From Pseudomonas sp. BP8 (GTDB lineage: Bacteria > Pseudomonadota > Gammaproteobacteria > Pseudomonadales > Pseudomonadaceae): a stretch of 64,000 nucleotides of DNA. The translations under genes were made by a program, and so were the position numbers. Under the pieces are notes generated by a model that was not told where the DNA came from, searched no databases, and was given only the letters and a program-made list of their open reading frames with translations. Shown here one piece after another: positions 48,721 through 58,831 of this stretch (position 1 is the stretch's first letter; every line of letters begins with the position of its first letter). Where the stretch lies: positions 5,799,501-5,863,500 of the forward strand of contig NZ_JAGINK010000001.1 in assembly GCF_017875955.1 (NCBI RefSeq), written 5' to 3'.

Positions 48721-49094
48721 AACAACTCCAACAACAGCAATGCTGCAATGACAGGGCGCCTTTGATCGGCACGCCATGCTTGCAGATGATGTGCTCTCCC
48801 TGCAAGTCGTGGCGATGTTCTGCAGGGCGGGCACCTGGACCAATCTTCGCCACCGACTGCGGCGTCATTCAACCTGCCGCAAAGGCAAAAACTCGGGAAC
48901 TGCTGATCCAGCCGTTCGCAACAGAGCCAGTTAATCTTGTGCACCAATGTGTACATCGCTTCAGACTTGAATCGCGATTGAGGGTGAACCGGATGGCCTC
49001 TTCGCGGGGCAAGCCCGCTCCTACAGGGGGGGCGGTGTACTTACGGGCTTATGCTCTTGTTGACTTGGCAGAGACCCTGTAGGAGCGGGCTTGA
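48721..49094. other. Intergenic region with a REP pair, left of the IS element
   Basis: About 375 bases before the IS. It holds a short open frame on the minus strand (48868 to about 48692) without domain match, a forward REP (48995-49028) and, after about 45 bases, the left part of an inverted REP (49075-49098) cut by the IS. I find no supported gene. Confidence 0.5.
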
Positions 49095-49098
49095 CCCG

Positions 49099-50378
49099 GG
49101 TACAAACCGGAGACATCGTTTACATTTCAAACCGGGGACATGGTTTACAGGCTAATACGCATGATCAGGAGGTATTTGATCATGCCCTGGAACCAAGAGT
49201 CCCCCATGGATCAACGAGTCAGATTGATTGGCGAATGGCTTTCCGGTGATTACACCAAGAGTCAGCTTGCTCGCCGGTACAACGTCAGCCGCCCCACGAT
49301 CGACAAATGGATATCGCGATATTCTGCGGGCGGCGTTGAAGCGCTGTCCGATGCCTCACGGCGTCCCGACAACAGTCCTAACAAGACAAGTGATGAGCTG
49401 TTGGCCCGCATTGTTGCGATGAAAGAAGCGCACGACAAATGGGGCCCCAAGAAGCTCATTGAGCTGTTGCGCCTTGAAGATCCATCCGTTGACTGGCCGT
49501 CCCCGAGCACCGCAGGGCAGTGGCTAGACCGACTGGGCATGGTTCACAAACGTGGGCCAAAGCGGCGATACGGGAAAAGCCCCACAAAGATGAGAGAGGC
49601 CAACGAGCCGAACAAGACCTGGTGCATCGACTACAAGGGCCAGTTCAAAATGCTCAACGGCCAGTGGTGCTACCCGCTAACAGTCACGGACCACGCCTCG
49701 CGCCTCCTCTTGGCCTGCAAAGCCCACAAGAACATCATGACGCAGCCGGTCATACAGACGCTTGAGTGGCTTTTTCAGGAGCATGGAATGCCAGAGGTAA
49801 TCCGCTCTGACAACGGCAGCCCATTTGCTTCAGTCGGGCTGGCAAGGATGTCCACTATCGCTGTTTGGTTGATCCGCCTCGGGATTTTTCCCGAACGGAC
49901 CGCTCCCGCGCGCCCAGATCAGAATGGTCGTCACGAGCGGATGCATCGCAGCATGAAGCTTGAACTGCCTCTGGGTCACAATCTGATCCATCAACAATTG
50001 TTGCTTGAGCATTTCCGCCACGAATTCAACTATGTCCGTCCCCACGAAGCACTGGGGATGAAGCGTCCATTTGAGCTGTATGTACCATCCAATCGGCCTT
50101 ACCCCGGATGTCTGCCTGTCGTGGAGTATCCCGCCGAAATGGCTGTCCGCAGTGTCAGGCAAAATGGCTCGATCAAGTGGAAAGGCAAGCTGCTGTTCAT
50201 CAGCGAGGCCTTGTCTGGCGAGAGGATTGGCCTGAAAGAGGTGGAGGATGATATTTGGGATGTGTTTCTGTGTGACCATCTCCTGGGGAGGCTGGAACGG
50301 GGTGAAAACCGCGTTCAAGCCTCAAATGTGTAAACCATGTCCCCGGTTTAAGATGTAAAGGATGTCTCCGGTCGTACA
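49099..50378 (+). mobile_element. IS481-type insertion sequence with 4-bp target repeat
   Basis: This 1,280-base element is bounded by CCCG direct repeats (49095-49098 and 50379-50382). The inverted ends share about 45 of 50 bases. Each end contains the same 20-base motif twice: left 49105-49124 and 49130-49149; right, on the minus strand, 50373-50354 and 50348-50329. A single transposase gene fills the inside. The target was a REP sequence; joining the flanks restores it. The ends follow the TGTAC...-like IS481 pattern. Confidence 0.92.
49182..50333 (+). CDS. IS481-family transposase
   Basis: This 383-residue DDE transposase has an N-terminal helix-turn-helix (Y-T-K-S-Q-L-A-R-R-Y-N-V-S-R at about 25-38) and a retroviral integrase core with C-I-D-Y-K-G, I-R-S-D-N-G-S-P-F and N-G-R-H-E-R giving the D, D, E triad. 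The ATG at 49182 has an AGGAGG ribosome site six bases upstream; the ATG at 49140 lies inside the left end. The stop codon (50331-50333) is inside the right inner terminal repeat, so gene and end sequences overlap. It appears intact. Confidence 0.93.
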   Translation: MPWNQESPMDQRVRLIGEWLSGDYTKSQLARRYNVSRPTIDKWISRYSAGGVEALSDASRRPDNSPNKTSDELLARIVAMKEAHDKWGPKKLIELLRLEDPSVDWPSPSTAGQWLDRLGMVHKRGPKRRYGKSPTKMREANEPNKTWCIDYKGQFKMLNGQWCYPLTVTDHASRLLLACKAHKNIMTQPVIQTLEWLFQEHGMPEVIRSDNGSPFASVGLARMSTIAVWLIRLGIFPERTAPARPDQNGRHERMHRSMKLELPLGHNLIHQQLLLEHFRHEFNYVRPHEALGMKRPFELYVPSNRPYPGCLPVVEYPAEMAVRSVRQNGSIKWKGKLLFISEALSGERIGLKEVEDDIWDVFLCDHLLGRLERGENRVQASNV

Positions 50379-50422
50379 CCCGCGAACACCGGCAAAGCCG
50401 GTGCCATTCACCCAAACAGCAG

Positions 50423-58732: not shown

Positions 58733-58831
58733 CCCTGTAGGAGCGGGCTTGCCCGCGAAACCGGCAGCGCCGGTGCCATGCACCACGGTGGCAGGACCGG
58801 CCTCTTCGCGGGGCAAGCCCGCTCCTACAGG
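58733..58831. repeat. Two REP sequences in inverted orientation
   Basis: Left REP (CCCTGTAGGAGCGGGCTTGC..., 58733-58775) with an extra hairpin ACCGGCAGCGCCGGT, then a right REP (58797-58831). They lie between the leftward aidB and amn. Confidence 0.9.

Follow-up and report, generated by a model that had tools for sequence, protein, structure and literature searches.

The window analysed here, a stretch of 64,000 nucleotides from the genome of Pseudomonas sp. BP8, contains an insertion sequence of the IS481 type that interrupts one of the REPs, the short, repeated, palindromic sequences of intergenic spacers. The features of the locus are collected in Table 1. Read from the sequence, with a slash at each junction between element and flank, the copy runs ...TGTAGGAGCGGGCTTGACCCG/GGTACAAACCGG ... 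CCGGTCGTACA/CCCGCGAACACCGGCAAAGCCGG. An inverted REP adjoins the interrupted one and the target had therefore belonged to a REP pair. An earlier note on this DNA had described an IS481-type element splitting a REP, and this is confirmed, with CCCG on both sides; it had also proposed that removal of the element and one CCCG restores a REP similar to the copy near 58733-58775, and the restored sequence does resemble that copy but has one extra base after TTG.

Table 1. Features of the insertion sequence and of the REP that it interrupts (positions in the window).
Feature	Position	Strand	Basis
IS481-like insertion sequence, 1,280 bp	49099..50378	+	exact stretch common to four 100% identical genome copies
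Transposase gene, 383 aa counted from conserved MPW start	49182..50333	+	ORF; rve + HTH domains (Pfam)
Left end: pair of 21-bp direct repeats (AAACCGGAGACATCGTTTACA, AAACCGGGGACATGGTTTACA) 25 bp apart	49104..49149	+	sequence
Right end: inverted version of the left end, also carrying two similar repeats	50329..50378	-	sequence
Target duplication CCCG, left copy	49095..49098		sequence
Target duplication CCCG, right copy	50379..50382		sequence
Interrupted REP, left part; core GAGCGGGCTTG at 49083-49093	49077..49098	+	sequence, compared between copies
Interrupted REP, right part (CGAACACCGGCAAAGCCGG)	50383..50401	+	sequence; cf. copy at 58733-58775
Adjoining inverted REP	about 49000..49026	-	sequence

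We count the transposase from the MPW start because residues M1, P2 and W3 are unchanged in all 10 relatives that were aligned; an alternative start, the ATG at 49140 upstream of it, would give a protein of 397 aa. Besides the transposase the element holds mechanical ORFs only, and no second gene of known function was seen in it. Its left and right ends, matched against one another, are 93% identical. A miniature derivative of ~104 bp, with both element ends and no gene, lies at about 1471-1574 of locus L037 (genome G089), itself within a REP and with CCCG on either side. Separately, in genome G359 the transposase gene is split similarly across frames in 13 of the 15 copies read (L017, L094, L106-L110 and L112-L117), which occupy different REPs; spread in trans is a possible explanation, as is slippage at single-base runs.

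The host genome (6,004,477 bp, one contig) holds four full copies of the element, all 100% identical, which split four different REPs at the same position and in the same orientation, each in different surroundings; a search of plasmids for near matches to the element returned none. Exact matches to GGAGCGGGCTTGNCCC number 765 in this genome, against one for the reversed control pattern, so that the chance of landing on a site of this type is about 6e-5 per insertion (765 in ~12 million stranded positions). The 4-bp duplication claimed in the earlier note holds for the window copy and for two other host copies, but in the fourth, L002, the duplication is 3 bp (CCC). The right flank of the window copy, sought in 57 genomes, was matched in 41, the own genome included; among the 20 loci compared the left flank was matched only by the own genome, and no empty-site allele was found.

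An element of this kind has been described in P. fluorescens SBW25, for which the accessible text of Ngan et al. (2024, PMC11708052) reports an IS481-family element that targets REPs, with REPs as the site of four old copies and of one insertion newly obtained in the laboratory, and a 4-bp repeat that was first read as a duplication and then found to travel with the element. Such a case lends some colour to the idea that the left REP half is part of the element and is carried along with it. We considered this reading and rejected it as highly improbable: the left flanks of the four identical host copies are unlike one another (TTGACCCG, TTGTCCC, TTGTCCCG and TTGCCCCG), these flanks agree with the host's own type of REP, and the REP continues in the right flank. 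The SBW25 element is likened to the loci here by its description in that text rather than by its sequence; its 4-bp repeat is said there to travel with the element, whereas the repeats found here, over many copies, are 3-4 bp long and derived from the target. Judging from the description, a C run adjoining the element may account for part of the travelling repeat.

To survey the genus, we searched 398 genomes with the DNA of the element, scoring two candidates in each, and found matches in 61; a protein-based scan of a species-representative collection yielded 43 loci, of which 37 carry a Pseudomonas title. Insertions were read in 20 of the 61 positive genomes, among the matches listed, from 80 chosen stretches. 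We dropped L005-L011 (element-end matches and a repeat of an own copy), duplicates recognised by their flanks, and loci in which no element end was found or the flank was too short (L027, L038 and L040 among them). This left 114 unique insertions: the left flank was usable in 90, including 57 with both flanks, and the other 24 had a right flank only; core scoring covered the 90.

The motif GAGnGGGCTnG precedes the element in 84 of these 90 insertions, among the matches listed, and its end lies 4 nt from the element in 72 and 5 nt in 12. A core match allowed at most two mismatches in the nine fixed positions, and 73 insertions had none; the sites from which the motif was derived are those on which it was then counted, and the background is 3,816 of 470,888 positions (0.81%), or 568 (0.12%) at no more than one mismatch. 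The core is absent at six insertions (L033, L056, L080, L101, L102 and L111), and REP use is 4/4 in the host genome, yet G052 and G359 each hold non-REP copies; across the genus the rule is strong but not absolute. The proposal of the earlier note that REPs serve an IS481 relative as target sites is thus supported, with the same position and orientation in the 84 cases, and the flanks of the other Pseudomonas copies, six of which lie at other sites, do not refute it. Random or weakly selective insertion, with survival only of those copies that fall in harmless REPs, would draw on the intergenic position of REPs, since insertions elsewhere would often damage genes, and on the few copies that do occupy non-REP sites. 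It does not account for 84 of 90 insertions having a single exact position and a single orientation, however, and the one laboratory insertion given in the accessible text on SBW25 (PMC11708052) was in a REP; having considered this reading, we reject it as scarcely credible.

Among the 57 copies with both flanks, the longest exact flanking repeat measures 3 bp in 36 and 4 bp in 20, and one copy (L088) has none. Thirteen of the 4-bp repeats are C runs, whose length is ambiguous, and seven are not (L001, L003, L004, L012, L037, L084 and L125). The repeats vary with the target (TCC, CCT, TCG, CCG, GTG, CAC, GGA, CCCG and CCGC) and are therefore derived from it. These duplications bear upon another possible origin of the pattern, in which copies would have reached REPs through homologous exchange between REPs and not through transposition. 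REPs are nearly identical and recombine, and REP clusters are recombination hot spots according to the accessible text of PMC11708052, but the homology needed would span just some 20 bp per side and exchange predicts no duplication, yet 56 of the 57 copies show one of 3 or 4 bp, as do, with 3 bp, the four non-REP copies with both flanks (L056, L101, L102 and L111). Exchange was considered and rejected, and we hold it to be very improbable indeed.

The window element has the single-ORF DDE (rve) transposase with an N-terminal HTH that characterises the IS481 family, and its duplications fall within the 2-15 bp of that family. The Pfam models rve (60.3 bits) and HTH_32 (54 bits) match above their cut-offs and LZ_Tnp_IS481, at 21.3 bits, slightly under its cut-off of 22.2. 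The best NCBIfam model is transpos_IS481 at 210.2 bits, below the curated cut-off of 224; relatives on the same tree (L042, L048, L058 and L065) are likewise under this cut-off, and more distant relatives exceed it (L223, 230.4; L240, 260.5). The transpos_IS3 model gives 106.2 bits, under its curated cut-off of 160, and no IS110 model is among the Pfam or NCBIfam matches; an IS110-type guide RNA was considered and rejected. Compared with the TGT...ACA ends of IS481, the right end fits (TACA) and the left end, throughout this lineage, begins GGTA. The predicted structure of the transposase is a poor model (mean pLDDT 57.6, with much of the catalytic part below 50), and by sequence profile the best solved relatives are chains of the IS5376 transposase (8q4d, 8b4h), followed by retroviral integrases. 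In the accessible parts of PMC10045372 and PMC11406308, typical IS481 members are described as having a single DDE transposase, TGT...ACA-type ends and duplications of 2-15 bp, mostly 6 bp; the single DDE transposase and the variable length of the duplication are common to both, whereas the lineage studied here differs in its 3-4 bp duplications, its left end GGT and its REP target.

One sublineage is inserted in a second repeat, CCCTCTCCC..GGGAGAGGGCTAGGGTG/GTGAGGGG, where '/' is the insertion site. Its proteins have 56-57% amino acid identity to the window protein and it has tree support of 100/100. The second repeat occurs in four tested hosts of the sublineage with 132, 146, 107 and 368 exact matches (both strands), often as inverted pairs, and has no exact match in five other tested genomes. 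GAGnGGGCTnG is common to this repeat and to ordinary REPs and lies at an equal distance from the cut in both, but the hairpin is placed differently: ordinary REPs have the core in their 5' arm, the second repeat has it in the 3' arm of its hairpin. Genome G216 contains 120 ordinary-type REPs and 107 second repeats, and of its three copies, a small number, two are in the second repeat, one (L056) is in neither and none is in an ordinary REP. On the tree the second-repeat rows form one clade and the ordinary-REP rows need two changes, with a support of 89/81 for the joining branch; this topology makes a single switch of target repeat in the lineage likely.

The site, the orientation, the stagger and their recurrence are read directly from the sequence, as is the presence of the motif in a second repeat class at an unchanged distance. 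Together they make it highly probable that this is a site- and orientation-specific IS481-like element whose paired ends are joined to the target with a 3-4 bp stagger, 4-5 bp downstream of GAGnGGGCTnG. In the mechanism that we propose, the transposase would bring both element ends together, each with its two 21-bp repeats, and join them at this distance from a linear motif located within the head and 5' arm of the REPs of Pseudomonas; it is always the left end that faces the motif. On the simplest account the transposase itself would read the REP core, as linear double-stranded DNA and not as a hairpin, and cut 3-4 bp apart just downstream. The abundance of REPs, and the harmlessness of interrupting them, may be why they persist as targets.

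The linear reading is favoured for this lineage because the orientation is fixed and the core is common to two repeats of different hairpin layout. That the transposase instead recognises the REP hairpin, as a cruciform or in single-stranded form, is an idea that the palindromic nature of REPs invites but that we think unlikely here, since insertion is off-centre and in one orientation only, and the core changes hairpin arm between the two repeat classes with the distance to the cut unchanged. The folding of the joined flanks, compared in Pseudomonas for loci below L100, speaks on both sides: the median z is -0.72 against -0.07 in controls (Mann-Whitney p 6e-5), but z falls below -2 at only 4 of 39 sites against 51 of 563 controls. 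Given this modest signal we are open to the hairpin having a part in the target choice of this lineage, and do not claim hairpin recognition.

A further argument for hairpins comes from other IS481-family lineages of the genus. As a control for REP use, 199 Pseudomonas genomes were searched with the NCBIfam IS481 model at E<=1e-70, which gave 21 listed matches in nine genomes, all above the IS481 cut-off; both ends could be fixed in 18 (L258, L266 and L274 were left out), the proteins of which have 31-35% identity to the window protein where aligned. Since several of the 18 share a genome with near-identical elements, they represent fewer lineages than insertions. Complementary arms (score >=9) span the insertion at 16 of the 18 sites, against 2 of 1,080 control positions, and 11 (L259, L260, L262, L267, L268, L270, L272, L273 and L275-L277) occupy the hairpin of the second repeat class (CCCTCTCCC..GGGAGAGGG), in either orientation and with a 5-bp duplication; these are all 11 copies listed for G036, G098 and G019. 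Insertion at palindrome centres suggests a symmetric mode in those lineages.

More distant relatives were collected by a protein search at E<=1e-40, which matched 18 of 369 genomes of the class and 17 of 398 of the phylum, the own genome being in both. Their targets were read from the flanks, labelled by eye and placed on a tree of 54 rows (46 different), 14 of which are without a target label. The six label groups need five changes on this tree, the minimum possible, against a shuffled mean of 25.3, a comparison that near-copies inflate; four groups each form one side of a branch and the ordinary-REP and rhizobial-repeat rows need two changes each. Complementary arms (score >=9) are enriched among these relatives, at 5 of 32 sites against 10 of 1,920 controls, though in a minority, and their joined flanks give a median z of -0.66 against -0.07, with z below -2 in 7 of 31 against 36 of 462 controls (p 0.008). 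Both tests cover relatives with fixed ends (those left out include L202, L206, L208, L210, L212, L214-L217, L219 and L226), and L211 is in the arm test and left out of the fold test.

The clearest case among the label groups is a lineage that adjoins tRNA genes (tree support 100/100). We count 17 members (L206, L208, L209, L223, L224, L227, L236, L241, L245-L250 and L254-L256), with the copies found at 64-100% identity to L223 included and L251-L253, at 45-48% to L223, left out. ARAGORN places a tRNA gene at the right side of the element in 13 of the 17 (L206, L209, L224, L227, L236, L241, L245-L248 and L254-L256); by eye, L208, L223 and L250 end in an apparent cut or remnant tRNA, and L249, which is broken, has no tRNA. 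At least nine tRNA types are found at these sites (Arg, His, Asn, Met, Gly, Glu, Asp, Ser and Gln), and the element lies downstream, with its right end toward the tRNA and a gap of 9-12 bp from the tRNA end where this was read. Other relatives sit, by eye, in palindromic repeats, and at some sites (L201, L228, L232 and L239 among them) no repeat is evident. One such palindromic pattern, CCTTCTCCC-N5-GGGAGAAGG with at most one mismatch, occurs 33-78 times in each of G936, G829, G880, G826 and G820 and 4 times in G844, and was not found in G1059 or G650. As a separate observation, diverse IS481 relatives (L065, L204, L207, L257 and L265) lie beside or within sequence like AAAAGTAACCAAAGAGAAGGC, perhaps another interspersed palindromic repeat.

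REP-associated insertion sequences as such are not new. In the accessible part of Tobes and Pareja (2006, PMC1525189) the families with such members are IS3, IS110, IS4, IS256 and IS5, a list from which IS481 is absent and which it now joins. According to the same text every copy of ISPpu9 and ISPpu10 in P. putida KT2440 is at one fixed REP position, as are the copies described here, but these are IS110-family elements with 2-bp repeats at another REP position, whereas the window element has an rve-type DDE transposase. ISPsy8 of P. syringae DC3000, of the IS3 family, is there described as likewise having an rve-domain transposase, a 3-bp duplication and a fixed REP position; it differs in being a two-orf IS3 element at the hairpin symmetry axis, the window protein being under the IS3 cut-off. 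The window element is of the kind already reported in 2024 for SBW25, as far as the accessible text of PMC11708052 describes it. In the open-access literature we found no report of a genus-wide pattern, a common core or a second repeat for IS481, nor of a wider IS481 target pattern or of tRNA-end insertion by IS481 relatives; both are weak negatives.

Of greater interest than the window element itself is the wider IS481 pattern. We give an even chance to a wide reading in which specialisation for 'safe' targets, structured and present in many copies, is widespread in the IS481 family and each lineage inherits a rule of its own. In this lineage the targets would be REP heads, entered in one orientation and with a stagger of 3-4 bp, one sublineage having moved to a repeat that shares the core; other IS481 lineages would insert in either orientation, with staggers of 5-6 bp, at the centre of palindromic repeats; and a related lineage would insert 9-12 bp downstream of many different tRNA genes, its right end toward the tRNA. 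If so, target switching could be traced within one family of single-protein DDE transposases, in which neither a guide RNA nor an accessory protein is apparent. Proteins that are about 57% identical already use two different repeats, and a near-exclusive, genus-wide target of a single-protein DDE transposase offers a natural set for the study of how sequence specificity arises. It is plausible that REPs are 'safe' sites, and the results suggest that small transposons find general refuge in REPs, in palindromic repeats of other kinds and at tRNA ends.
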